Of a stretch of DNA of 64,000 nt, positions 814-11,682 are shown in pieces. The notes under the pieces are model-generated. The model was not told the origin of the DNA. It did no database searches and was given only the letters and a program-made list of their open reading frames with translations. The stretch lies in NCBI RefSeq assembly GCF_014323725.1, contig NZ_JABVED010000007.1:62001-126000 (forward strand). Direction: 5' to 3'. The translations under genes were made by a program, and so were the position numbers. Numbering within the stretch: position 1 is the first letter of the stretch; the number at the start of each line of letters is the position of its first letter. This DNA is from Actinokineospora xionganensis (GTDB lineage: Bacteria > Actinomycetota > Actinomycetes > Mycobacteriales > Pseudonocardiaceae).

Positions 814-924
814 GCAGCCCCCACCCGTCCCGGGGGGGACGTCCCTTGTCCAGCGCATCGGGGGTAGGGGTGCGGTGGGGGGTTGTGGATCTTCCTGTGG
901 ATAGCCGGAGGTAGGTGTGGATAA
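814..924. repeat. Dispersed repeat, copy 1 (between ipdB and ipdC)
   Basis: This 111-base G-rich stretch aligns along its length with the reverse complement of 11050-11161. Shared blocks include GCAGCCCCC at one end, a run of G followed by GACG or GACGTCCCTT, CCAG, ATCGGGGG, a second G-rich run, and TGTGGA-type motifs at the other end. It contains the ten-base palindrome GGGACGTCCC. Three TGTGGAT-type motifs lie at 883-890, 896-903 and 916-924; the last is the reverse complement of TTATCCACA. The element supplies the ribosome-binding site (907-911) and start codon of ipdC. No coding capacity or transposase is seen. Confidence 0.7.
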
Positions 925-1981
925 GTCGATGGAGACGGCGTTCACGCGGTTGGTTGGGGTTCGGTATCCGGTGGTGCAGACCGGGATGGGGTGGGTGGCC
1001 GGGCCTCGGCTGGTCGGTGCGGTGGCGCGGGCAGGCGGCTTGGGGATTCTCGCGTCGGCGACGATGACGTTCGACGAGCTGGCCAAGGCGATCGCGGAAA
1101 CCAAAGCGCGCACGGACGAGCCGTTCGGGGTCAATCTGCGGGCCGACGCGGTGGACGCCCCAGCGCGGGTGGAGCTGTTGATCCGTGAACGGGTCAAGGT
1201 CGCGTCGTTCGCGTTGGCGCCCACGAGAGAGCTCATCGCGAAGCTCAAGGACCACGAGGTCGTCGTCATCCCCTCCGTCGGGGCCGCACGGCACGCTGAG
1301 AAGGTGGCGGCCTGGGGCGCGGACGCGGTCATCGTGCAGGGCGGCGAAGGTGGCGGGCACACCGGGTCGGTGGCCACCACCCTGCTACTTCCGTCCGTTG
1401 TGGACAGTGTGGACATTCCGGTGGTCGCCGCCGGTGGGTTCTTCGACGGCCGTGGACTCGTGGCCGCCCTGTCCTACGGCGCGGCCGGGATCGCCATGGG
1501 GACGAGGTTTCTCCTCACCCAGGAGAGCACCGTGCCCGACGAGGTGAAGCGCGCCTATCTCGAGCGGGGGCTCGACGGCACGGTCGTCAGCACCCGCGTC
1601 GACGGCATGCCTCATCGGGTGCTGCGCACCGAACTGGTGGACAGGCTTGAGAAGTCCGGCCGAATCCGGGGCCTGGCCGCCGCCGCCCGCAACGCCATCC
1701 GGTTCCGCGCGCTGACGAAGCTGAGCTGGTCGGCGATGGCCCGCGAAGGCCTGGCCATGCGCCACGGCAGGGAACTGAGCTGGTCGCAGGTGATCATGGC
1801 CGCGAACACGCCGATGCTGCTCCGCGCGGGTCTGGTCGAGGGCAACACCGACGCGGGGGTGCTGGCGGGCGGGCAGGTCGTCGGCCTGCTCGACGATCTC
1901 CCGACCTGCGCGGACCTGATCGACACGATCATGACCCGGGCCCACGAGACCCTCGAGCGGCTGGCGAAACTCAACGCCTAG
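917..1981 (+). CDS. ipdC: IpdC, FMN-dependent steroid ring C/D reductase-type enzyme (nitronate monooxygenase family)
   Basis: A 354-residue TIM-barrel protein of the nitronate monooxygenase / 2-nitropropane dioxygenase family. Visible family features are the N-terminal VRYPVVQTGMGWVAGPRLV segment, the QGGEGGGHTG flavin-phosphate loop near residues 137-146, and AAGGFFDGRGL followed by GTRFLLTQES. The position after ipdB and the family match Mycobacterium tuberculosis Rv3553 (IpdC), needed for the redox step that prepares ring C for cleavage in the HIP pathway. The GTG start at 917 has GGAGG five bases upstream; an in-frame ATG at 929 would be too far from it. The ribosome-binding site lies inside the dispersed repeat. 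The gene converges with the WS/DGAT gene, only eight bases away. Confidence 0.87.
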   Translation: MDKSMETAFTRLVGVRYPVVQTGMGWVAGPRLVGAVARAGGLGILASATMTFDELAKAIAETKARTDEPFGVNLRADAVDAPARVELLIRERVKVASFALAPTRELIAKLKDHEVVVIPSVGAARHAEKVAAWGADAVIVQGGEGGGHTGSVATTLLLPSVVDSVDIPVVAAGGFFDGRGLVAALSYGAAGIAMGTRFLLTQESTVPDEVKRAYLERGLDGTVVSTRVDGMPHRVLRTELVDRLEKSGRIRGLAAAARNAIRFRALTKLSWSAMAREGLAMRHGRELSWSQVIMAANTPMLLRAGLVEGNTDAGVLAGGQVVGLLDDLPTCADLIDTIMTRAHETLERLAKLNA

Positions 1982-1989
1982 GCAGCCCG

Positions 1990-3363
1990 TCAGACGAGTT
2001 CCTTCTCCATCGCCGCCAAGCCCGTCTCCAGGTGCGTCAGCAGCCGCTGCAGGTGCGGGACCGTTCGACGGCAGCCGGTCAGGCCGAACTCCAGGCTGCC
2101 GTCGTAGCTGGTCACCGTGATGTTGAGCGCCTGCCCCTCGTACGGGATCGACACCGGGTACACGCCCTCCATCCGCGCGCCATTCCAGTACAGCGGCCGC
2201 TTCGGGCCAGGCACGTTCGAGATCAGCAGGTTGAACGCCGGTGGGGTGAGCTTCTGCGCGCCGGGCACCAGGGCCACCGCGAGCGGGGCGAACGGGATGG
2301 CGCTGAGCGCGGTGATCTGCAGCTGGCTCATGCCGCTGTAGAACTGCTTGCCGCGGCGCATCGACTCCGAGATGGCGGCGAGGCGGTCGACCGGGTCCTC
2401 GACGTCGGTGGCCAGGGTGCACAGGATCAGGCCGACAGCGTTGCCGCCCGCTTCCCCGTCGCTGTCCGAGCGCAGGGAGATCGGGACGGCGGCGACCAGC
2501 GGCTTGTCCGGCAGCGCGCCGAGTTCGATCATGTACTCGCGCAGCGCGCCCGCGCACATGGCCAGCATGACGTCGTTGACGGTGGCGCCCGCGGCGACCC
2601 CGACGGCCCGGATGCGGTCCATCGGCCAGCCCTGGGCGGCGAAGCGGCGCGCGCCGGTGATCGGGACGTTGAACATCGACTTCGGGGCCTCGAAAGGCAG
2701 CGTCGCGGACTGCTCCTGAAACACCTGATTGGCGTAGCGGACGACCGCCGGGGCCAGGCTGATCACGTCGCGGAACGCGCCGAAGGCGTTGGCGATCCCA
2801 CTGAGCGGCGGCCCTTCGCGGCCGCGTGGCGCCGAAGCCGCGTCCGTGCGCATCCGCGGGGACCACGGGGGACGCATGTTGCGCTCGTCCGGATCCTCCG
2901 ACAGCGACTTCTGCAGCAGGCGCAGCGCGGACACGCCGTCTACCAGCGCGTGGTGGACCTTCGTGTAGACGGCGAAGCGGTTCTCCGACAGCCCGTCGAT
3001 CAGGTGCGCCTCCCACAGGGGGCGGTGCCGGTCGAGCAGCGAGCCGTGCAGCCGCGACACCAGCTCCAGCAGCTGACGGACCTGGCCTGGCGCGGGCAGC
3101 GCGGACAACCGGACGTGGTATTCAAGATCGATGTCGTCGTCGTTGGCCCAGGCGAGTGGCCCGACGGTGCCGATCCCGCGCGGCCTGCGCCGAAACAGCG
3201 ACCGGATGTCGACTTCGGACAGCAGCTCGCGGTGCAGGTTGCCCACGAAGTCCGGCCCGGCGCCTTCCGGACGCTGGAACAGCTGCAGCCCGCCGACGTG
3301 CAGGGGATGCTCCCGCGACTCGCCGAGCAGGAACATCGAATCCGTCACGGGCATCATCGCCAT
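1990..3363 (-). CDS. Wax ester synthase / diacylglycerol acyltransferase (WS/DGAT)
   Basis: A 457-residue member of the bacterial WS/DGAT family, which esterifies acyl-CoA with diacylglycerol or fatty alcohol to make storage lipid. The catalytic HHxxxDG motif reads HHALVDG at residues 137-143. The N-terminal PVTDSMFLLGESREHPLHVG and the C-terminal FNLLISNVPGP segment are also family hallmarks. The ATG start has GGAGG six bases upstream. It lies 65 bases downstream of fadA6 on the same strand, so it may be the last gene of the fadE30-ipdF-kstR2-fadA6 operon. The gap contains an imperfect inverted repeat CCACT-gcga-AGTGG (3406-3419) that could instead mark its own promoter. Substrate preference cannot be read from sequence. 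Confidence 0.88.
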   Translation of the reverse strand: MAMMPVTDSMFLLGESREHPLHVGGLQLFQRPEGAGPDFVGNLHRELLSEVDIRSLFRRRPRGIGTVGPLAWANDDDIDLEYHVRLSALPAPGQVRQLLELVSRLHGSLLDRHRPLWEAHLIDGLSENRFAVYTKVHHALVDGVSALRLLQKSLSEDPDERNMRPPWSPRMRTDAASAPRGREGPPLSGIANAFGAFRDVISLAPAVVRYANQVFQEQSATLPFEAPKSMFNVPITGARRFAAQGWPMDRIRAVGVAAGATVNDVMLAMCAGALREYMIELGALPDKPLVAAVPISLRSDSDGEAGGNAVGLILCTLATDVEDPVDRLAAISESMRRGKQFYSGMSQLQITALSAIPFAPLAVALVPGAQKLTPPAFNLLISNVPGPKRPLYWNGARMEGVYPVSIPYEGQALNITVTSYDGSLEFGLTGCRRTVPHLQRLLTHLETGLAAMEKELV

Positions 3364-3428
3364 CGCGTTCCTCCTGGTTCGGGTGGTCCCGAAGGGTCAA
3401 CGCTGCCACTGCGAAGTGGTTACCGCAA

Positions 3429-4583
3429 TCAACCGAGACGTTCGACAATGGTGACGTTGGCCTGGCCGCCACCTTCGCACATCGTCTGCAGGCCGAACCG
3501 GCCGCCGGTGCGTTCGAGTTCGTGCAGCAGAGTGGTGAAGAGCTTGGTTCCGGTTGCGCCGATCGGGTGTCCCAACGCGATCCCGCCGCCGTTGACGTTG
3601 ACCTTCGCCGGGTCCGCGCCGGTCTCCCTGATCCACGCGAGCGGCACGCTGGCGAACGCCTCGTTCACCTCGAACAGGTCGATATCCGAAATGGACATTC
3701 CGGCCCGGTCCAGGGCGAACCGGGTCGCGCGGATCGGCGCGGTGAGCATGTAGACCGGGTCGTCGCCGCGCGCGGACAAATGGTGGATACGCGCGCGCGG
3801 GGTGAGGCCGTGCTCTTTGACCGCGCGTTCGGATGCGACCAGGACCGCGCTTGCGGCGTCGGAGATCTGGCTGGCCATGGCGGCGGTGGAGATCCCGCCC
3901 TCGCGCAGCGGCTTGAGGCCTGCCATCTTCTCCAGGGACGTGTCCCGACGCGGACCCTCATCGACCCGGGCATCGCCCAACGGGACGATCTCGCGGTCGA
4001 ACCGGCCCGCGTCGATCGCGGCCACCGCGCGCTGGTGGCTGGTGAGCGCGAACCCTTCCAACTCCTCGCGCCCGATCTCCCAGCGCTCGGCGATCAGGTC
4101 GGCCGAGCGGAACTGGTCGACCTCCTCGGCTCCGTATCGGGCGGCCCAGCCGGTCGAGCCCGACATCGGGGTCGGGAAGCCGAACTGGTGCCCTACGGTC
4201 ATCGCCGAGCCGATCGGGATCTGGCTCATGCTCTGCACCCCACCTGCGACGACCATGTCGGCGGTGCCGCTGAGCACGGCCTGCGCGGCGAAGTGCAGCG
4301 CCTGCTGGCTCGACCCGCACTGCCGGTCGACGGTCACCCCCGGCACCTCGTCGCTGAACCCGGCGGCCAGCCAGGACAGCCGGGCCACGTCGCCTGCCTG
4401 CGGGCCGATGGTGTCGACACAGCCGAAGACCACGTCGTCGACCGCCGCCGGGTCCACCTCCGTCCGACCCATGAGCGCGCGCAACACGTGTGCGCCGAGG
4501 TCGAGCGGGTGCACGCCGCTGAGGGCTCCCCCGCGCCTGCCGGTGGGCGTGCGCAGGGCGTCGACGATGTAGGCCTCGGCCAC
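3429..4583 (-). CDS. fadA6: FadA6, thiolase of steroid ring C/D beta-oxidation
   Basis: A 384-residue thiolase. The nucleophilic cysteine sits in DRQCGSSQQ (Cys89), the catalytic histidine in GGIALGHPIGATG (about His339) and the second cysteine in TMCEGGG (about Cys369), so all active-site residues are present. Overall similarity as I recall it is highest to mycobacterial FadA6 (Rv3556c), a KstR2-regulated thiolase acting on the acyl-CoAs released after ring C/D opening. The start chosen is GTG at 4583, with AAGGAG five bases upstream; a GTG six bases earlier would overlap that site. It overlaps nothing but follows the kstR2 stop by two bases, indicating one transcript. Confidence 0.9.
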   Translation of the reverse strand: MAEAYIVDALRTPTGRRGGALSGVHPLDLGAHVLRALMGRTEVDPAAVDDVVFGCVDTIGPQAGDVARLSWLAAGFSDEVPGVTVDRQCGSSQQALHFAAQAVLSGTADMVVAGGVQSMSQIPIGSAMTVGHQFGFPTPMSGSTGWAARYGAEEVDQFRSADLIAERWEIGREELEGFALTSHQRAVAAIDAGRFDREIVPLGDARVDEGPRRDTSLEKMAGLKPLREGGISTAAMASQISDAASAVLVASERAVKEHGLTPRARIHHLSARGDDPVYMLTAPIRATRFALDRAGMSISDIDLFEVNEAFASVPLAWIRETGADPAKVNVNGGGIALGHPIGATGTKLFTTLLHELERTGGRFGLQTMCEGGGQANVTIVERLG

Positions 4584-4585
4584 GA

Positions 4586-5194
4586 TCACTCCTTCGTCTT
4601 GGTGGCGATCCCGTCCAGGAGGATGCCCAGGTACTGCCTGGCGACGTCGTCGTGGCCGAGTGGGCCGCCGGGGCTGTACCAGCGGACGGCGACCCAGACG
4701 GTGTCGCGCAGAAAGCGGTAGGCGACCTCGATGTCGAGGTCGGGGCGGAACGCGCCGCGGGCGATGCCGTCGCTGAGGATGGTCGACCACATCTTGCGGA
4801 ACTGGACGTTGCGTTCCTCGATGTAGCCGAACCGCTCGAACTCGGCGAGGTACCCGGCTTCGTTCTGGTAGATCGCGACCTCGGCGTGCCGCTCGTCGAT
4901 CGCGGCGAAGGAGGCGACGACGATCGCCTCAAGGGTCTCGCGGGGGCCGAGGCCGCGGGCGAGGATCTCGTCGTAGCGGCCGAAGAGGGCGTCGAGGAAG
5001 CCGGTCAGGATCTCGTCCACCATCGACTCTTTGGAGTCGAAGTGGTGGTAGAGACTGCCGGAGAGGATGCCCGCCCGGTCGGCGATGTCGCGGACCGTGG
5101 TGGCCCGGAACCCGCGCTCGGCGAACATGTCGGCGGCGAGCGCGAGCAGCTCGGCGCGTCTGCCGGTGCCCTCGGACGGCTTCCGTTCTCGCAT
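4586..5194 (-). CDS. kstR2: KstR2, TetR-family repressor of ring C/D genes
   Basis: A 202-residue TetR-family protein. The helix-turn-helix occupies about residues 12-58, including AERGFRATTVRDIADRAGILSGSLYHHF; the rest is the ligand domain with the IEERNVQFRKMWSTIL and DTVWVAVRWYSPGGPL segments shared with mycobacterial KstR2 (Rv3557c). KstR2 responds to HIP-CoA made by FadD3 and represses genes for rings C and D. A perfect copy of its operator is present at 7147-7160, between fadE30 and fadD3, and would control the operon that contains kstR2 itself (autoregulation). The ATG at 5194 is preferred over an upstream in-frame extension with no family similarity. Confidence 0.92.
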   Translation of the reverse strand: MRERKPSEGTGRRAELLALAADMFAERGFRATTVRDIADRAGILSGSLYHHFDSKESMVDEILTGFLDALFGRYDEILARGLGPRETLEAIVVASFAAIDERHAEVAIYQNEAGYLAEFERFGYIEERNVQFRKMWSTILSDGIARGAFRPDLDIEVAYRFLRDTVWVAVRWYSPGGPLGHDDVARQYLGILLDGIATKTKE

Positions 5195-5213
5195 GTCAGG
5201 GGTGTTCCTTCGC

Positions 5214-5993
5214 TCAGGGGTGCTGGCTGCTGACCGAGATGACCTCGCCGGTGAGGTAGGACGCGTAGTCCCCGGCCAGGAACACCATGACATTGGCGAC
5301 TTCCCACGGCTCGGCGGCCCTGCCGAACGCCTCCCGGCCCGCCAGTTCGGTGAGCAGCTCATCGCTGGTCACCTTGGCCAGGAAGGGATGCATGGCCAGG
5401 CTGGGCGCGACTGCGTTCACCCGGATGCCGTGTTCGGCGACGTCGACCGCGGTGCACCTGGTCAGCGCCATCACCCCCGCCTTGGCCGCCGCATAGTGGG
5501 CTTGGCCCTGCTGGGCGCGCCAGCCGATGACGGAGGCGTTGTTGACGATCGACCCGCCGCCGCCCTGGGCGATGAACCGCCGGACCGCGGCCCGGGTGCA
5601 GCGGAAGGTGCCGTTGAGGGTGACGTCGAGGACCCGGGACCACTCGTCGTCCGCCATGTCCACAATGGACTTGGTGCCGCCGAGGCCCGCGTTGTTGACC
5701 AGGACGTCGATGCGGCCGAAGTGCCCGGCTGCCCCGTCGATCAAGGCCTGCACGTGGGTCTCGTCGGTGACGTCGCAGACCAGCGAGTGCACCTTGCCGG
5801 GGTGGTCGGCGGCGAGCTTCGCGGCGGTCTCGGCCAGCCGGCGCTCGTGCCAGTCGCTGACGACGACCTTCGCGCCCTCCTCCAGCGCGCGGCGGGCGAC
5901 CGCGGAGCCGATGCCGGTGCCCGCGGCGGCGGTGACGACGACGACCTTGCTGTCGAGCAGGGCGTGCCCGGCCGGGTAGGACGGAACGTTCAT
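5214..5993 (-). CDS. ipdF: IpdF, short-chain dehydrogenase of the HIP pathway
   Basis: A 259-residue short-chain dehydrogenase/reductase. The nucleotide-binding motif TAAAGTGIGS is at residues 21-30, NNAG at 100-103, and the catalytic Ser154, Tyr167 and Lys171 (YAAAK) are present. It matches Rv3559c (IpdF), which oxidises the 5-hydroxy group of 5-OH-HIC-CoA during ring C/D catabolism. The ATG at 5993 overlaps the fadE30 stop codon (ATGA), showing translational coupling. kstR2 follows after 19 bases. Confidence 0.9.
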   Translation of the reverse strand: MNVPSYPAGHALLDSKVVVVTAAAGTGIGSAVARRALEEGAKVVVSDWHERRLAETAAKLAADHPGKVHSLVCDVTDETHVQALIDGAAGHFGRIDVLVNNAGLGGTKSIVDMADDEWSRVLDVTLNGTFRCTRAAVRRFIAQGGGGSIVNNASVIGWRAQQGQAHYAAAKAGVMALTRCTAVDVAEHGIRVNAVAPSLAMHPFLAKVTSDELLTELAGREAFGRAAEPWEVANVMVFLAGDYASYLTGEVISVSSQHP

Positions 5994-7108
5994 GCGCGGG
6001 CCTCTCGCGGCAGGCCGAGCACGCGCTCGGCGATGATGTTGCGCTGGATCTCGTCGGAGCCGCCGTAGATCGTGTCGGCCCGGCTGAACAGGAACAGCCG
6101 CTGCCACTCGTCGAGACCGTCCGGAGTGAGCATCGACGCCGCGCCGACCACATCCATGGCGAGTTCGCCAAGGCCGCGGTGCCACCGGGACCAGACGAGC
6201 TTCGCGACGGAGGCATCGGTGCCGCGCACGGCGTAGGCGCACATGACCTCCAGGCCGACGCGCGCGCGTGCGAGTCGTTCGGAGATGGCCGGGTCCTCCG
6301 CCGCGCCATTGCGAAGAGCCAGATCGGCGAGGGCGTCGAGTTCACGGCGGAAGCCGACCTGCTGGCCGAGGGTGGCCACGCCACGCTCGAAGGACAGCGT
6401 GCCCATGGCGACCTTCCAGCCGCCTCCGGGCTCGCCGACCACAAGGTCGGCGGCGGTGCGGGCACCGTCGAAGAAGACCTCGTTGAACTCCGACGTGCCG
6501 GTGAGCTGGACGATCGGGCGGACCTCGATGCCGGGCTGGTCCATGGGGACGAGCAGGTAGGACAGGCCGTGGTGGCGCTGCGAACCCGGTTCGGTGCGGG
6601 CGATCACGAAACACCAGTCGGCCAGGTGCGCGAGTGAGGTCCACACCTTCTGCCCGGTGATCACCCAGTCGTCGCCGTCGCGGCGGGCTGAGGTGTGCAC
6701 CGCCGCGAGGTCGGAGCCGGCGTTCGGCTCGGAGTAGCCCTGGCACCACAGCTCGCGGACCTGCCGAATGCCCGGAAGAAAACGTTTGCGCTGCTCGTCG
6801 GTGCCGAACGCGAGCAGGGTCGGGCCGAGTAGTTCCTCGCCGATGTGGCTGACCCGGGCGGGCGCGTCGGCGCGGGCGTACTCCTCGTGGAAGGCGATCT
6901 GGTCGGCCAGGCTCGCGGCCCGGCCACCGTGTTCGACCGGCCAGCCCAGGCAGGTCCAGCCCGCGGCGGCGAGGTGGCGGTCCCAGGCGATGCGCTCGTC
7001 GAAGGCCTCGTGCTCGCGGCCCGGTCCGCCGAGTCCGCGCAGGTGGCGGTACTCGCCTGCGAGGTTGTCGGCCAGCCACTCCCGCGCCGATGCCCGAAAA
7101 TCGTCCAC
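5990..7108 (-). CDS. fadE30: FadE30, acyl-CoA dehydrogenase for HIP-CoA
   Basis: A 372-residue acyl-CoA dehydrogenase. It shows the ordered family segments: WCQGYSEPNAGSDLA in the FAD/substrate region, TGQKVWTSLAH, and the C-terminal DTIYGGSDEIQRNIIAERVLGLPRE. It corresponds to Rv3560c (FadE30), which introduces the first double bond into the propanoate side chain of HIP-CoA. It is the first gene of an operon with ipdF, kstR2, fadA6 and perhaps WS/DGAT. The GTG at 7108 has GGAGG five bases upstream and is preferred to a GTG at 7114 that overlaps the ribosome-binding site. Divergently transcribed fadD3 shares the KstR2 operator. Confidence 0.91.
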   Translation of the reverse strand: MDDFRASAREWLADNLAGEYRHLRGLGGPGREHEAFDERIAWDRHLAAAGWTCLGWPVEHGGRAASLADQIAFHEEYARADAPARVSHIGEELLGPTLLAFGTDEQRKRFLPGIRQVRELWCQGYSEPNAGSDLAAVHTSARRDGDDWVITGQKVWTSLAHLADWCFVIARTEPGSQRHHGLSYLLVPMDQPGIEVRPIVQLTGTSEFNEVFFDGARTAADLVVGEPGGGWKVAMGTLSFERGVATLGQQVGFRRELDALADLALRNGAAEDPAISERLARARVGLEVMCAYAVRGTDASVAKLVWSRWHRGLGELAMDVVGAASMLTPDGLDEWQRLFLFSRADTIYGGSDEIQRNIIAERVLGLPREARA

Positions 7109-7146
7109 GCGCACCTCCGCTCTTGCTCCCGTCGGTACAGTAGCCT

Positions 7147-7160
7147 ACCAAGCACTTGCT
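7147..7160. promoter_or_regulatory. KstR2 operator, fadE30/fadD3 divergent promoter
   Basis: The 14 bases ACCAAGCACTTGCT fit the published KstR2 consensus AnCAAGnnCTTGnT at every defined position. The site lies in the 66-base gap between fadE30 and fadD3 and would repress both directions. It ends 14 bases before the fadD3 start codon. Confidence 0.9.
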
Positions 7161-7174
7161 TTGGAGGAGGTTGG

Positions 7175-8689
7175 GTGACGACCACCACCCCGGCGGCGTT
7201 ACGCGCGGCGGCCGAGCGGTTCGGCGACGGCGAGGCGGTCGCGGACGGCTCGGTCCGACTGAGCTGGCGCGAGCTGCTCACGGCCGCCGAGACGGTGGCC
7301 CGGGCCTTGATCGCCGAGGGCCTCGAACCCGGCGACCGAGTCGCCCTCTGCGCGCCGAACACGCACCACTGGGTGGCCGCGGTGCTGGGCGCGCAGTACG
7401 CCGGATGCGTGGCGGTGCCGATCAACACGCGGTTCACCGGGCCGGAGATGACCGAGATCCTGACCCGCAGCCGGGCACGGGCACTGTTCGTCGTGGGGAC
7501 GTTCCTTGGGGTGAACCGGCTCTCGCGGGTGCGGGCCGCCCTTGACGGGATGACCGTCATCCGGATTCCCGGCGAGGGCGACCGGCCTTCACCCGATGTG
7601 ATCGAGTGGGATGCGCTGGACGCGGTCGCCGAGCGGGTCCCGGTCGAGGTGGCGCGGGCGCGGGCAGGCACGGTGACGCCCGACCAGATCTCCGACATCC
7701 TGTTCACCTCCGGCACGACCGGGCACAGCAAAGGCGCGATCACCGCGCACCGGCAGGCGCTGGGCGTGGCCGCGGCGTGGGTCGAGTGCGGCGAGGTGAC
7801 GTCGGCCGACCGGTACCTGATCGTCAACCCGTTCTTCCACAGCTTCGGCTACAAGGCGGGCATCCTGGCCGCGCTGCTCAGCGGGGCCACGATCGTGCCG
7901 CAGGCAGTGTTCGACCTCGACCGGACGCTGGAACTGGTGGAGCGCGAGCGGATCACCGTGCTCCCCGGGCCGCCGACGATCTATCAGACGATGCTCGACC
8001 GTCCGGGCACGCGCCCGTCGACGCTGCGCCTGGCGGTGACCGGGGCCGCGCCGGTGCCGGTCGTGTTGGTGCAGCGGATGCGCTCGGAGCTGAGCTTCCA
8101 GACGGTGTTGACCGCGTACGGACTGACCGAGGCGGTCGTGGTGACGATGTGCCGACCCGGTGACGCGCCGGAGATCGTCTCCCGCACGTCCGGCCGGGCG
8201 GTCGCCGGGTTCGAGGTGCGCGTCGCCGAGGACACCAGGGAGATCCTGGTGCGCGGGCCCAACGTCATGCTCGGCTACCTCGACGATCCCGAGGCGACCG
8301 CACAGGCCGTCGACGCCGAAGGATGGCTGCACACCGGCGATATCGGCGTGCTCGACGCCGACGGATACCTCACGATCACCGACCGGCTCAAGGACATGTA
8401 CGTGTGCGGCGGGTTCAACGTGTACCCGGTGGAGGTCGAGCAGGTGCTCGCCCGACTGCCGGGAGTGTCGGAGTGCGCGGTGGTCGGGGTGCCGCACGAG
8501 CGGCTCGGCGAGGTCGGCCGGGCGCACATCATCCTGAGCCCGGGGGCCGCATTGTCCACTGAGGACGTCCTGGCGCACTGCGCCGAACGGCTGGCCAACT
8601 ACAAGATCCCGCGCTCGGTCGAGTTCCGGACCGACTTGCCGCGCAACGCCACCGGAAAGATTCTGAAGAGAATGCTGAGGGACACATGA
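7175..8689 (+). CDS. fadD3: FadD3, HIP-CoA synthetase
   Basis: A 504-residue AMP-forming acyl-CoA ligase, the same size as mycobacterial FadD3 (Rv3561). The ATP-binding motif FTSGTTGHSKGA is at about residues 178-189, YGLTEA and the GWLHTGDIG segment follow, and the adenylation lysine is in NATGKILK (about Lys495). FadD3 activates HIP (the indanedione propanoate left after ring A/B removal); the CoA product is the effector of KstR2. The GTG start at 7175 has a GGAGGAGG ribosome-binding site. Codon 9 is the rare TTA. The gene opens an operon with an enoyl-CoA hydratase, fadE31 and fadE32, joined by ATGA overlaps. Confidence 0.93.
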   Translation: MTTTTPAALRAAAERFGDGEAVADGSVRLSWRELLTAAETVARALIAEGLEPGDRVALCAPNTHHWVAAVLGAQYAGCVAVPINTRFTGPEMTEILTRSRARALFVVGTFLGVNRLSRVRAALDGMTVIRIPGEGDRPSPDVIEWDALDAVAERVPVEVARARAGTVTPDQISDILFTSGTTGHSKGAITAHRQALGVAAAWVECGEVTSADRYLIVNPFFHSFGYKAGILAALLSGATIVPQAVFDLDRTLELVERERITVLPGPPTIYQTMLDRPGTRPSTLRLAVTGAAPVPVVLVQRMRSELSFQTVLTAYGLTEAVVVTMCRPGDAPEIVSRTSGRAVAGFEVRVAEDTREILVRGPNVMLGYLDDPEATAQAVDAEGWLHTGDIGVLDADGYLTITDRLKDMYVCGGFNVYPVEVEQVLARLPGVSECAVVGVPHERLGEVGRAHIILSPGAALSTEDVLAHCAERLANYKIPRSVEFRTDLPRNATGKILKRMLRDT

Positions 8690-9525
8690 GCGAGGTCCTC
8701 TACGAGCGGCGTGGCGCCACGGCCGTGGTCACGATGAACCGGCCTGAGTTCCGCAACGCGCAGAACTCGGCGATGACCTACGCGCTCGACGCGGCGTTCG
8801 CCCGGGCGGTGGACGACCCCGAGGTCAAGGTGATCGTGCTGGCCGGTGCGGGCAAGCACTTCTCGGCCGGGCACGACATCGGCACGCCGGGTCGGGACGT
8901 GGACGTCTCGTTCGACCGCAAGGCCGTGCTGTGGTGGGACCACGTCGACCGCGCGGGCGGTGACCAGCGGTTCGCCCGGGAGAGCGAGGTCTACCTCGGG
9001 ATGTGCAGGCGGTGGCGGGAAATCCCGAAGCCGGTGATCGCGATGGTGCAGGGCGCGTGCATCGCCGGTGGGCTGATGCTGGCCTGGGTGTGCGACCTGA
9101 TCGTCTGCTCCGACGACGCGTTCTTCTCCGACCCGGTGGTGCGTATGGGGATTCCCGGCGTCGAGTACTTCGCGCACCCGTGGGTGCTGGGTCCGCGCGC
9201 GGCGAAGGAGTTCCTGTTCACCGGCGACCGGTTCGACGCGGCCTGGGCGCTGCGGAACGGGATGGTGAACCGGGTGGTGCCTCGGGATTCGCTTGAGGCC
9301 GAGGTGGAGGCGCTGGCGGGGCGGATCGCGGAGATGCCGCAGTTCGGGCTGGCGCTGACGAAGAAGGCGGTCAACCAGGCCGAGGACCAGATGGGAATGC
9401 GGGCGGGCATGGACTCCGTGTTCGGCCTGCACCACTTCGCCCACGCGCACAACGCGGAGGTGTCGAAGGATTCCCTCGGCGGCCTCGATGCCCGCTCGAT
9501 GAAGCGGGCCGCTGATGGATCTTGA
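8686..9525 (+). CDS. Enoyl-CoA hydratase/isomerase (crotonase family)
   Basis: A 279-residue crotonase-fold protein with the oxyanion-hole segment GKHFSAGHDIG near residues 63-73 and MVQGACIAGGLMLAWVCDLIV near 116-136. The region after it (SDDAFFSDPVVRMG) carries the usual active-site loop. It starts within the fadD3 stop codon (ATGA) and ends 11 bases inside fadE31, so it is translated as part of the fadD3-fadE31-fadE32 operon. This implies hydration of an unsaturated CoA ester in HIP catabolism, but it does not resemble EchA20 or EchA19 closely as I recall them, so I leave it without a symbol. Confidence 0.85.
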   Translation: MSEVLYERRGATAVVTMNRPEFRNAQNSAMTYALDAAFARAVDDPEVKVIVLAGAGKHFSAGHDIGTPGRDVDVSFDRKAVLWWDHVDRAGGDQRFARESEVYLGMCRRWREIPKPVIAMVQGACIAGGLMLAWVCDLIVCSDDAFFSDPVVRMGIPGVEYFAHPWVLGPRAAKEFLFTGDRFDAAWALRNGMVNRVVPRDSLEAEVEALAGRIAEMPQFGLALTKKAVNQAEDQMGMRAGMDSVFGLHHFAHAHNAEVSKDSLGGLDARSMKRAADGS

Positions 9526-10642
9526 CCTGTCCCCCGCCGTGACGGCCTTCCGCGACGAGGTGCGCGCGTGGCTGGCGGTTCACGTGCCCGGCGGGTTGCC
9601 ATCGATGGACACCGCCGAGGGCTTCGCCGCGCACCGGGAGTGGGAGCGGACCCTGGCCGACGCGCGGTTGGCGGTGGTGTCGTGGCCCGTCGAGTACACC
9701 GGGCGGGACGCGTCGCTGCTGGAGTGGGTGCTGTTCGAGGAGGAGTACTACGCCGCGGGGGCGCCCGGGCGGGTCAGCCAGAACGGGATCTTCCTGCTGG
9801 CCCCCACCCTGTTCGCCCACGGCACCCAGGAGCAGCGCGACCGGCTGCTCCCCCGGATGGCGCGGGCTCTCGACGTCTGGGCACAGGCGTGGTCCGAGCC
9901 GGAGGCGGGCAGCGATCTCGCGGCCCTGCGCAGCCGGGCGGTCCGCACCGACGGCGGCTGGCTGCTGTCGGGTCAGAAGACCTGGAGCTCGCGGGCCGCG
10001 TTCGCCGACCGGGGTTTCGGGCTGTTCCGCACGAACCCGGACGCCCACCGGCACAAGGGTTTGACGTACTTCCTGTTCGACCTGCGGGCCGAGGGCGTGA
10101 CCGTCCGCCCGATCGACCAACTCGACGGCGAGCCCGGCTTCGCCGAGATCTTCCTCGATGAGGTCTTCGTCCCCGACCGCGACGTTCTGGGTGCGGTCGA
10201 CGACGGCTGGCGGGTCGCGATGAGCACGGCCAGCAACGAACGCGGCTTGTCGCTGCGCAGTCCCGGCCGATTCCTCGCCGCCGCCGACCGGCTCGTCGAC
10301 CTGTGGGCTTCGCACGGTGACCTCTCGTCGCGTGACCGGGTCGTCGACGCGTGGATCGGCGCGCAGGCCTACCGGCTGCACACCTTCGGCACCGTCACCC
10401 GGCTGGCCGAGGGCGGCGAACTGGGGGCGGAATCGAGTGTCACCAAGCTGTTCTGGTCGGAACTGGACGTGGCCATGCACGAGACGGCACTCGACCTGCT
10501 CGGCCCGGACGGCGAGCTGGACGGGCCGTGGCAGGACGGCTACCTGTTCTCGCTGGCGGGCCCGATCTACGCGGGCACCAACGAGATCCAGCGCAACGTC
10601 GTGGCCGAACGCCTGCTGGGACTGCCGAGGGAGCCGCGATGA
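9515..10642 (+). CDS. fadE31: FadE31, acyl-CoA dehydrogenase
   Basis: A 375-residue acyl-CoA dehydrogenase whose segments VWAQAWSEPEAGSDLAALRS, LSGQKTWSSRA and GPIYAGTNEIQRNVVAERLL match mycobacterial FadE31 (Rv3562). FadE31 is known to form a heteromeric complex with FadE32 or FadE33, the small partner subunits that supply half of the FAD site. The ATG at 9515 lies inside the end of the hydratase gene, and the stop overlaps the fadE32 start (ATGA). Its role is in KstR2-controlled ring C/D degradation; the exact substrate is not established from sequence. Confidence 0.88.
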   Translation: MDLDLSPAVTAFRDEVRAWLAVHVPGGLPSMDTAEGFAAHREWERTLADARLAVVSWPVEYTGRDASLLEWVLFEEEYYAAGAPGRVSQNGIFLLAPTLFAHGTQEQRDRLLPRMARALDVWAQAWSEPEAGSDLAALRSRAVRTDGGWLLSGQKTWSSRAAFADRGFGLFRTNPDAHRHKGLTYFLFDLRAEGVTVRPIDQLDGEPGFAEIFLDEVFVPDRDVLGAVDDGWRVAMSTASNERGLSLRSPGRFLAAADRLVDLWASHGDLSSRDRVVDAWIGAQAYRLHTFGTVTRLAEGGELGAESSVTKLFWSELDVAMHETALDLLGPDGELDGPWQDGYLFSLAGPIYAGTNEIQRNVVAERLLGLPREPR

Positions 10643-11682
10643 GGTTCGCCCTGACCGCCGAACAACGCCAGTTCGCCGCATCTCTCGACGACCTCCTGTC
10701 CGCCGCCTCAGTCCCGTCCGCGGCCAGGGCGTGGGCGGCAGGCGACCCCGCTCCCGGCCTCGCGATTTGGCGGGAACTCGCCGACTTGGGCGTCATGGCT
10801 CTGGCCGTTCCCGAACGCTTCGGCGGCCTCGACGCGACCTCGGTCGACCTGGTGGTCGCCTTCGAGCAACTCGGCAGGCATGCCGTCCCCGGCCCCTTGG
10901 TGGAATCCGTCGCGGTCGCACCAACCCTGGCCGACGAGTCACTGCTCCCCGACTTGGCCCGCGGCAAGGTGATCGCCACCGTGGCCCTCCCACCGCACGT
11001 CCCCCACGCCTTGGACGCCGACATCGCCGACCTCATCCTCACCCCACCTTTGTCCACACCCACCCGGCCTTGTCCACAGCCCAGCGCGCCCCCCTCCCCC
11101 ACACCCCCCACCCCCGATAGACTGGCCAAGGGCCGTCCCCCCGGGGAAGGGCGGGGGCTGCTCGGAGGTCGGCTGCGCGATGTCGGGGCACCCATGTCCT
11201 CTGTGGATGGTGTGCGGCGGTTGTTTCGGGTCGACGCGCCTGTGGTGGAGCATCCCGGGTTCGAGGTGGGGGTGCTGGCTGTGTCCGCGCAGCTGGTGGG
11301 GTTGGGGCAGGCCATGGTGGAGCGGGCCGTCGAGTACGCCAAGACCCGCACCCAGTTCGGCGGTCCCATCGGCCGGTTCCAAGCCGTCAAGCACCTGCTC
11401 GCCGACGCGCTCGTCGGAGTCGAACTGGCGCGGCCCTTGGTATACGGCGCCGCGGTGACGATGAGCCGACGGGACATCTCGGCGGCCAAGGTGGCCGCCG
11501 GGGGAGCCGCCGACCGGGCCGCCCGGGCCGCGCTTCAAGTGCATGGGGCGGTCGGCTACACCCAGGAGTACGACCTCGGCCTCTGGCTCACCAAGGCCCG
11601 CGCGCTGCGGTCGGCGTGGGGCACGCCATCCACCCACCGCGAGCGCGTGCTTGACTCGCTTACCGCGAGTCGGAGTCGATGA
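10639..11682 (+). CDS. fadE32: FadE32-like acyl-CoA dehydrogenase subunit carrying an in-frame repeat insertion
   Basis: A 347-residue acyl-CoA dehydrogenase subunit, longer than mycobacterial FadE32 (about 319). The N-terminal part (RFALTAEQRQFAASLDDLL to DADIADLIL) and the C-terminal part (VGLGQAMVERAVEYAKTRTQFG to RSAWGTPSTHR) are both recognisable. Between them, at about residues 138-174, is a Pro/Arg/Gly-rich segment of low complexity encoded by copy 2 of the dispersed repeat (11050-11161). The frame stays open through it. The start overlaps the fadE31 stop (ATGA). The last 23 bases overlap the convergent kinase gene. Whether the protein still folds and pairs with FadE31 is unknown. Confidence 0.85.
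   Translation: MRFALTAEQRQFAASLDDLLSAASVPSAARAWAAGDPAPGLAIWRELADLGVMALAVPERFGGLDATSVDLVVAFEQLGRHAVPGPLVESVAVAPTLADESLLPDLARGKVIATVALPPHVPHALDADIADLILTPPLSTPTRPCPQPSAPPSPTPPTPDRLAKGRPPGEGRGLLGGRLRDVGAPMSSVDGVRRLFRVDAPVVEHPGFEVGVLAVSAQLVGLGQAMVERAVEYAKTRTQFGGPIGRFQAVKHLLADALVGVELARPLVYGAAVTMSRRDISAAKVAAGGAADRAARAALQVHGAVGYTQEYDLGLWLTKARALRSAWGTPSTHRERVLDSLTASRSR
11050..11161. repeat. Dispersed repeat, copy 2 (inside fadE32)
   Basis: This 112-base stretch is the inverted counterpart of 814-924. It contains two perfect TTGTCCACA nonamers (11050-11058 and 11070-11078, 20 bases apart), C-rich runs, the block CCCCCGATAGACTGGCCAAGG and the end GGGGGCTGC. It lies wholly within the fadE32 reading frame. 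Confidence 0.7.

Follow-up and report, generated by a model that had tools for sequence, protein, structure and literature searches.

Positions 814 to 924 and 11,050 to 11,161 of the window, the 64,000-nucleotide stretch of Actinokineospora xionganensis DNA analysed here (70% G+C), belong to a single family of dispersed, non-coding DNA repeats that is found in Actinokineospora and in part of the remaining Pseudonocardiaceae. The repeat is about 110–130 bp long, has no open reading frame of its own, and occurs in many copies at unrelated sites and in both orientations. Its parts are, in order, two 9-mers of the DnaA-box type (TTRTCCACA), one near −64 and the other near −44, a spacer that varies in sequence but hardly in length, a 19-base core (CCGATAGACTGGCCAAGGG) and a C/G-rich arm. 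We give an even chance to the reading that it is a small non-autonomous repeat that spread in trans and has been retained as a predicted DnaA-type nucleoprotein site useful to the host.

Two window copies of a dispersed repeat

The original prediction had reported that 814–924 resembles the reverse complement of 11050–11161 from end to end. Gapped local alignment reproduced this likeness over both stretches with a score of 78, against a best score of 36 (mean 19.9) in 500 Markov shuffles, and the coordinates proved accurate to within 1–2 bases. Without gaps, the arm at 814–870 is 84% complementary to 11105–11161 over 57 nt. The pair had been judged not to be a recent duplication, and this holds because the sister genome (G014) has both copies at the same two sites. 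No transposase was found among six window genes scanned with NCBIfam or in the gene holding copy 2, as had been claimed. The names KstR2 and ipdC were left unconfirmed, with the best NCBIfam matches of both proteins under the curated cut-offs.

Copy 1 (W1, 814–924, minus strand; G014 orthologue L133) has its boxes at the high-coordinate end and its C/G-rich arm (814–842) at the low end. Box 1 (TTATCCACA) occupies 916–924, box 2 (CTATCCACA) 896–904, and the core (CGATGCGCTGGACAAGGG), which differs from the core pattern at four positions, 843–860, all on the minus strand. The copy overlaps the start of an ipdC-like gene on the plus strand, whose putative Shine-Dalgarno sequence and GTG start lie at 907–919. 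The proposal that copy 1 provides the ribosome-binding site and start codon of this gene is plausible, with both signals still putative: GGAGG (907–911) falls between the boxes and GTG (917) inside box 1, and G014 retains the two signals.

Copy 2 (W2, 11050–11161, plus strand; G014 orthologue L056) carries the same 9-mer, TTGTCCACA, as box 1 (11050–11058) and box 2 (11070–11078), followed by the core CGATAGACTGGCCAAGGG (11115–11132) and the C/G-rich arm (11133–11161). It lies in frame within an acyl-CoA dehydrogenase gene (10639–11682, plus strand, with the start codon of our choice), between the N-terminal (PF02771) and C-terminal (PF00441) domain matches. No stop codon interrupts the frame through the copy, and the frame is open in G014 too. 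The paired 9-mers, the conserved core and the in-frame position of copy 2 had no place in the original prediction.

The suggestion that similar elements are scattered in the genome was borne out by 29 core matches with up to two mismatches, compared with one for the reversed control. Together with copy 1 (four-mismatch core) and three places with three mismatches and boxes, they give at least 33 copies in the own genome, one of them decayed (L048); L053, with three mismatches and no boxes, was left out of the family set. The congener G005 has 59 core matches, the most among the genomes searched. At up to two mismatches, 5 of the 16 genus genomes have no core match, and single matches elsewhere are no more than the background that the reversed control gives. 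The family is patchy across the genus. An order-wide scan found it in 5 of 397 genomes with a pattern so strict that divergent copies were missed. A contig-wide scan gave at least 103 matching stretches, and the 80 listed include Kibdelosporangium and Amycolatopsis records; the distribution named from it is a lower bound. No phage match to the element was found, and the plasmid search gave one weak match (E 7e-3), whose 45 bp cover spacer sequence and run three bases into the core. No description of the element was met in the literature searched, which lay mostly outside the subscription journals.

Architecture and conservation in place

The spacing of the parts is well kept. A box starts at −46 to −44 in all 29 own copies analysed and at −65 to −63 in 25 of them (one mismatch allowed). 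The two 9-mers are about two helical turns apart. The decayed L048 was left out of these counts and of the placement counts below, and kept in the conservation counts and end tests. Genome-wide, TTRTCCACA occurs 141 times against 39 for the reversed pattern, and 29 of these occurrences sit in the 29 copies. The 9-mer is also present downstream of dnaA in the own genome and G014, and the 9-mers of the copies match those downstream of the host dnaA. Outside the genus, a box at −43/−44 was found in 5 of 11 Kibdelosporangium banguiense copies and in 3 of 5 copies of a record labelled R. rhodnii (one mismatch allowed), and the palindrome GTGCGAACGG..TTCGCAC or close forms of it replaces the box in the other six and two, respectively.

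The right end of the element is well defined, since pairwise similarity stops at +45 to +49 in 102 of 190 pairs when 20 of the 59 G005 matches are compared; the flanks of the 20 G005 copies examined are mostly unrelated. The left end is looser. These results support the proposed non-autonomous scattered repeat family. Terminal inverted repeats were not found in the 29 copies (best 10-mer end complementarity averaging 7.48, versus 7.44 in shuffles), and neither this end comparison nor the RNA folds and consensus pairs described below support a palindromic sequence.

Both flanks are orthologous in G014 for 16 of 30 own copies. Identity in these 16 pairs is 139/144 in box 1, 137/144 in box 2, 116/154 between the boxes, 452/536 in the spacer and 297/304 in the core, the last value being inflated because the core served to find the copies in either species. 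Box identity is, if anything, lowered, as the counts include three false boxes, one at L033 ("box 1") and two at L048. Three further pairs, found through their flanks rather than the core, have a core identity of 43/57, the core being partly deleted at L034, interrupted at L041 and changed at L042; at L042 the own genome has also lost a box 1 that is still present in G014. Over all 19 pairs, identity is 325/342 (95%) in the boxes, 340/361 (94%) in the core, 137/181 (76%) between the boxes and 534/637 (84%) in the spacer. The boxes differ from the interbox and spacer with p 5.4e-10 and the core from the spacer with p 7.5e-7 (Fisher), values that are optimistic because sites within one copy are non-independent. 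The downstream 100 bp show 57% identity including poorly aligned stretches, and no conclusion is based on this figure. Uncommon box forms are common to orthologues (CGATCCACA in L049 and CGGTCCACA in L047), which, together with the orthologous flanks, is evidence against gene conversion. The boxes and core have thus changed less than the intervening DNA since the copies settled, suggesting that they have a job.

Eleven own copies fall outside the 19 pairs. For L025, L027 and L045 the corresponding site in G014 lacks the element, and none was seen at those of L031, L038 and L051. Synteny is broken at the element for L036, L039 and L044, the G014 site of L052 seems to hold an inverted element, and L043 completes the set.

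Placement, mobility and competing explanations

Among the 109 copies with both neighbours, 33 lie between convergent, 70 between co-directional and 6 between divergent genes, compared with 21.0 divergent expected from gap length and 26.5 from gap number; orthologous copies enter these counts more than once. Called genes contain 20 of 139 copies. In-frame copies occur also in PKS/NRPS and other enzyme genes, and the frame across the element is open in G014 also for L026, L030, L037 and L049. At L025, 251 bp are absent from G014, with a 2-base overlap (GA) at the TGA stop; the L027 and L045 junctions are too diverged for such a comparison, and no clear target-site duplication was found. Mobilisation of the RAYT/REP type was rejected, as Y1_Tnp (PF01797, RAYT-type) has no match in seven of the nine genomes searched, including the own genome (G000) and G005; G014 and G007 have one match each. 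A composite transposon was likewise rejected, on the ground that four of the longer ORFs enclosed by two inverted pairs of A. globicatena gave no transposase match (NCBIfam); two are mannosyltransferase-like and one AfsR/SARP-regulator-like, all below the cut-offs, and one is matchless. Replichore polarity of the FtsK- or Chi-like kind was also discarded. In G014, 21 of 32 copies are on the leading strand (p 0.11), and for G007 the figure is 17 of 22 (p 0.017), a skew put down to a presumed effect of gene orientation. Copies do not cluster at oriC.

Dispersed bacterial repeats are often taken as selfish debris. The copies could accordingly be small mobile repeats of a MITE-, REP- or MIRU-like kind that are selfish through and through and have no host function, whose transposase is now absent or elsewhere and whose boxes and core are transposase recognition sequences. 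The patchy distribution, the high copy number in some genomes, the defined right end and the mostly unrelated flanks in G005, the G014 sites without the element, the placement at tolerant sites and the decayed, cut and interrupted copies all agree with such an origin. We nevertheless consider it unlikely, since mobility alone would not maintain boxes and core in place while interbox and spacer diverged; the lack of terminal inverted repeats, of Y1_Tnp matches in the own genome and G005, and of a transposase match between the A. globicatena pairs also speaks against it. Since boxes and core have outlasted the intervening DNA and kept their spacing, a host role can be put to a direct test, and the 9-mers suggest DnaA as the protein concerned.

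An RNA reading fares worse. The predicted structural repeat or hairpin RNA was not upheld, and an RNA hairpin or riboswitch was rejected: seven RNA folds were no better than shuffles (z −0.76 to +1.43), none of the seven consensus pairs showed compensatory changes, and Rfam gave no match at the gathering score for the window and eight loci, the only weak match of copy 2 having E 2.5. The same results make it improbable that the C/G arm folds as RNA and ends upstream transcripts as a terminator, a role that would leave the DnaA-type boxes and the copies within reading frames unexplained, even though 75 of 115 upstream neighbours are read toward the element and a short T run stands behind the G run in some copies. 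The TAGACT within the core resembles actinobacterial −10 elements, and paired boxes upstream at fixed phase could be activator sites, so that the element might be a promoter of downstream genes or of a small RNA. The column counts hold no conserved −35, however, and of 112 downstream neighbours 65 point toward the element and 47 away from it, which makes a promoter very improbable. Chance similarity among GC-rich intergenic DNA might be suspected in a window of such composition, with C/G runs occupying much of the element; it is already refuted by the shuffle test, the excess of genome matches over the reversed control and the orthologous retention, and is hardly credible.

In the preferred reading of a retained DnaA-type site, some machinery acting in trans would have spread the repeat, which settled at the least harmful places. 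The two 9-mers may bind host DnaA, as predicted from the 9-mer alone, and the core may bind a second factor at fixed phasing, making each copy a candidate DnaA-type nucleoprotein site. Selection would then keep boxes and core for a benefit that these complexes bring to the host, in the simplest case as scattered sites that bind DnaA, with a titration or local regulatory use. Against this reading stand the palindrome in place of the box in some copies outside the genus, the patchy distribution, the decayed L048 and the box 1 lost at L042, and the failure to find a transposase, inverted ends or a clear target-site duplication. If true, a mobile repeat would have spread replication-initiator binding sites over the chromosome. 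A bolder form, which we put forward tentatively, is that the repeat seeded tens of two-box DnaA complexes, each kept by selection, and that the resulting network either soaks up DnaA by titration or ties what happens locally in the genome to the replication initiator, with the copies inside enzymes tolerated as proline-rich linkers.

Comparison with known repeats

The element is an ERIC/RPE-like small dispersed repeat with a sequence and architecture of its own. As in the ERIC/REP-like class, it is short, lies at many unrelated sites, has no ORF of its own and occupies few divergent spaces. REP/BIME elements with RAYT transposases are dispersed, avoid promoters and bind host proteins. The present repeat is likewise dispersed and promoter-avoiding, and host-protein binding is predicted for it, whereas the stem-loop and RAYT mobilisation of REPs have no counterpart here, with no supported stem-loop and no Y1_Tnp in the own genome or G005. 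The 29 copies also differ from MITEs in their ends, which lack terminal inverted repeats. Mycobacterial interspersed repetitive units (MIRU) are dispersed actinobacterial repeats that overlap the start and stop codons of their neighbours; DnaA boxes are, to our knowledge, not a MIRU feature, and this likening and distinction are by description, not sequence. The datA and DARS loci and a Streptomyces DnaA-box cluster are, like the copies here, groups of DnaA boxes or DnaA-type boxes away from oriC. They are single or few loci, in contrast to the tens of dispersed copies here, which have a core in addition.

We take RU-1 to be ERIC. The enterobacterial ERIC, RU-1, RU-2 and RU-3 repeats are 103–168 bp long and dispersed between genes, and also occur within genes with the frame maintained (PMC2759123). 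The present repeat shares their size class, dispersal and some copies within genes, and differs in sequence and hosts; the TTRTCCACA pair is unmentioned for them in the abstract (PMC2759123). The Rickettsia palindromic elements (RPE) are dispersed repeats of about 150 bp, many of them sitting in frame within genes that are unrelated to one another (PMC10969869). Our element resembles RPE in being small, dispersed and inserted in frame in protein-coding genes. Unlike RPE, it belongs to an unrelated organism, has no supported palindromic structure, is mostly intergenic and is built from paired boxes and a core.

Copies in the window and across genomes

Copy 1 (814-924) and copy 2 (11050-11161, taken as its reverse complement) matched over their full length with a score of 78, whereas the best of 500 Markov shuffles reached 36. 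The ungapped comparison covered the better half only (57 nt at 84%), and the core of copy 1 has 4 mismatches to the core pattern. The original prediction that this pair belongs to a scattered family was borne out, as the own genome of Actinokineospora xionganensis contains at least 33 copies, one of them decayed (L048). With copy 1 as a DNA query, 23 places were found in this genome (6.8 Mb, 70 contigs) at E≤10, a search that missed copy 2 and had coding noise within its weak tail. The core CGATAGACTGGCCAAGGG matched 29 places with up to two mismatches and 36 with up to three, versus 1 and 5 for the reversed control; boxes were also present at three 3-mismatch places.

Among 16 genus genomes, core matches with up to two mismatches numbered 59 (G005), 32 (the sister genome G014), 29 (own genome), 22 (G007), then 8, 8, 2, 2, 1, 1 and 1, with none in five; since the reversed controls reached 0-2 in each genome, a count of 1 or 2 is meaningless alone. 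A variant core had 14 matches in G009. Beyond the genus, 1-3 matches at the two-mismatch threshold occurred in 3 of 25 genomes. The matches listed from a GTDB genome scan included Actinokineospora species, Kibdelosporangium banguiense, two Amycolatopsis and a record labelled Rhodococcus rhodnii NRRL B-16535 (L211 in G410). With up to one mismatch, K. banguiense had 38 matches and the latter record 27 (control 0 in each), Amycolatopsis CA-126428 had 10 (control 0) and A. pretoriensis 7 (control 1). The Rhodococcus label looks wrong because the record is part of a 12.4 Mb assembly, far above the genome size of R. rhodnii, and therefore we claim the family no wider than Pseudonocardiaceae.

Element anatomy and conservation in place

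Counting from the core start as 0 and allowing one mismatch, a TTRTCCACA-type box starts at -46 to -44 in all 29 own copies analysed, and a second one at -65 to -63 in 25. The interbox has 10-12 bases without consensus. The C-rich spacer has mostly lost sequence similarity while its length is held within a base or two, and 3' of it come the core CCGATAGACTGGCCAAGGG, a run of C5-6, a G-rich segment and finally G5. For 18 of 20 G005 copies, the forward box lies at -56 and is part of two overlapping, inverted boxes, for example TTATCCACATGTGGAT; in Amycolatopsis, some inverted, spaced boxes occur. K. banguiense and the 'R. rhodnii' record have a box at -43/-44 or, in its place, a GTGCGAACGG..TTCGCAC palindrome, possibly the site of another protein. 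Palindromes of this type were seen at L213, L214, L256, L265, L276, L277, L267 and L279, at a core distance close to that of the box. For the 20 G005 loci, similarity stops on the right at +45 to +49 in 102 of 190 pairs, and the left limit is looser (median -79). The ends of the element show no inverted repeats beyond those of shuffles. G005 elements (L061, L070, L077, L163-L179) lie in mosaics, with several alternative downstream modules after the arm and GATCACTCGC-like modules upstream of some.

The suggested hairpin RNA found no support, with z values of -0.76 to +1.43 in seven core and arm folds. RNAalifold on 29 copies gave seven pairs, none with a double change, and an Rfam search, covering the window plus eight loci, matched no family at gathering score. 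The element acts, if at all, as DNA.

Both flanks match a G014 copy for 16 of 30 own copies. Identity in these pairs is 139/144 in box 1, 137/144 in box 2, 291/320 in the arm, 452/536 in the spacer, 116/154 in the interbox and 1317/1600 in the upstream 100 bp; the core value (297/304) is biased because the copies were found by the core, while the boxes had no part in the finding. Three extra pairs found through flanks (L034, L041, L042) have weaker G014 cores, which are partly deleted, interrupted and changed, respectively, and their identities are 43/57 (core), 22/27 (box 1), 27/27 (box 2), 21/27 (interbox) and 82/101 (spacer). For the 19 pairs together, boxes reach 325/342 (95%) and the core 340/361 (94%), against 137/181 (76%) in the interbox and 534/637 (84%) in the spacer (boxes versus interbox and spacer, p 5.4e-10; core versus spacer, p 7.5e-7). 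The additional pairs lower the core figure and leave the box result as strong. In L194, the G014 orthologue of L041, a stretch of ~150 bases breaks the core. The interbox of the copy 1 pair is fully conserved, as expected if the putative Shine-Dalgarno GGAGG (907-911) of the ipdC-like gene (GTG at 917) lies inside it.

Movement and gene context

The L027 site has 11 bp in G014 versus ~175 in the own genome, and the L045 site 37 bp versus ~133. At L025, 251 bp are missing in G014, with a GA overlap at the TGA stop; this stretch exceeds the element length, and it may be a gain in the own genome or a loss from G014. The G014 sites of L031, L038 and L051 showed no element on inspection, and synteny breaks off at the element in L036, L039 and L044. 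One intergenic space (L052; L206 in G014) seems to carry the element in one orientation in the own genome and in the reverse one in G014. An NCBIfam scan of selected proteins and a Y1_Tnp search of the own genome and G005 found no transposase candidate.

Gene placement was analysed for 139 copies with a simple codon-usage gene caller. Twenty lie within called genes, 15 of them on the strand of the gene and 5 on the other; 10 lack one or both neighbours, and 109 have both (33 convergent, 70 co-directional, 6 divergent). From the background gaps, 21.0 divergent placements would be expected by gap length and 26.5 by gap number, and for convergent placements the corresponding values are 27.6 and 19.9. 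Orthologous copies enter the observed counts repeatedly, and gaps that carry the element are themselves part of the background. Ten spanning frames were inspected with Pfam, and in six the element lies between domain matches: after AMP-binding in L026 and L147 (acyltransferase match below cut-off), between KR and PP-binding in L049, between PP-binding and thioesterase in L148, between acyltransferase and dehydratase in L146 (opposite strand), and between the N- and C-terminal acyl-CoA dehydrogenase matches in L037, which is copy 2. It precedes the ChsH2 zinc ribbon in L045. In three frames it is an insertion inside a match: NRPS AMP-binding (L043), DctM (L030, opposite strand) and ABC ATPase (L042, opposite strand). 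The G014 frame is likewise open across the element for L026, L030, L037 and L049.

DnaA-type boxes and the nature of the family

In the own genome, the 4 kb from the end of dnaA onwards contain two occurrences of TTGTCCACA and one of TCGTCCACA within a short distance, and the G014 counterpart has the same three 9-mers and more boxes. Genome-wide, the 9-mer occurs 141 times versus 39 for the reversed control, and 29 of these occurrences fall in the 29 own copies analysed. Judged from sequence, DnaA may bind the boxes. The own-genome dnaA contig (L344, L345, L346) also has TTRTCCACA boxes in tight pairs (13 apart) and in a group of three, with no core nearby within the stretch inspected.

The copies make up a dispersed repeat family of small, non-autonomous elements. 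We give an even chance to the copies being DnaA-type nucleoprotein sites with a host role. A purely selfish repeat is a less likely reading. In habit, the family is closest to ERIC and RPE; unlike these, it is marked by a DnaA-box/core architecture that is conserved in place.
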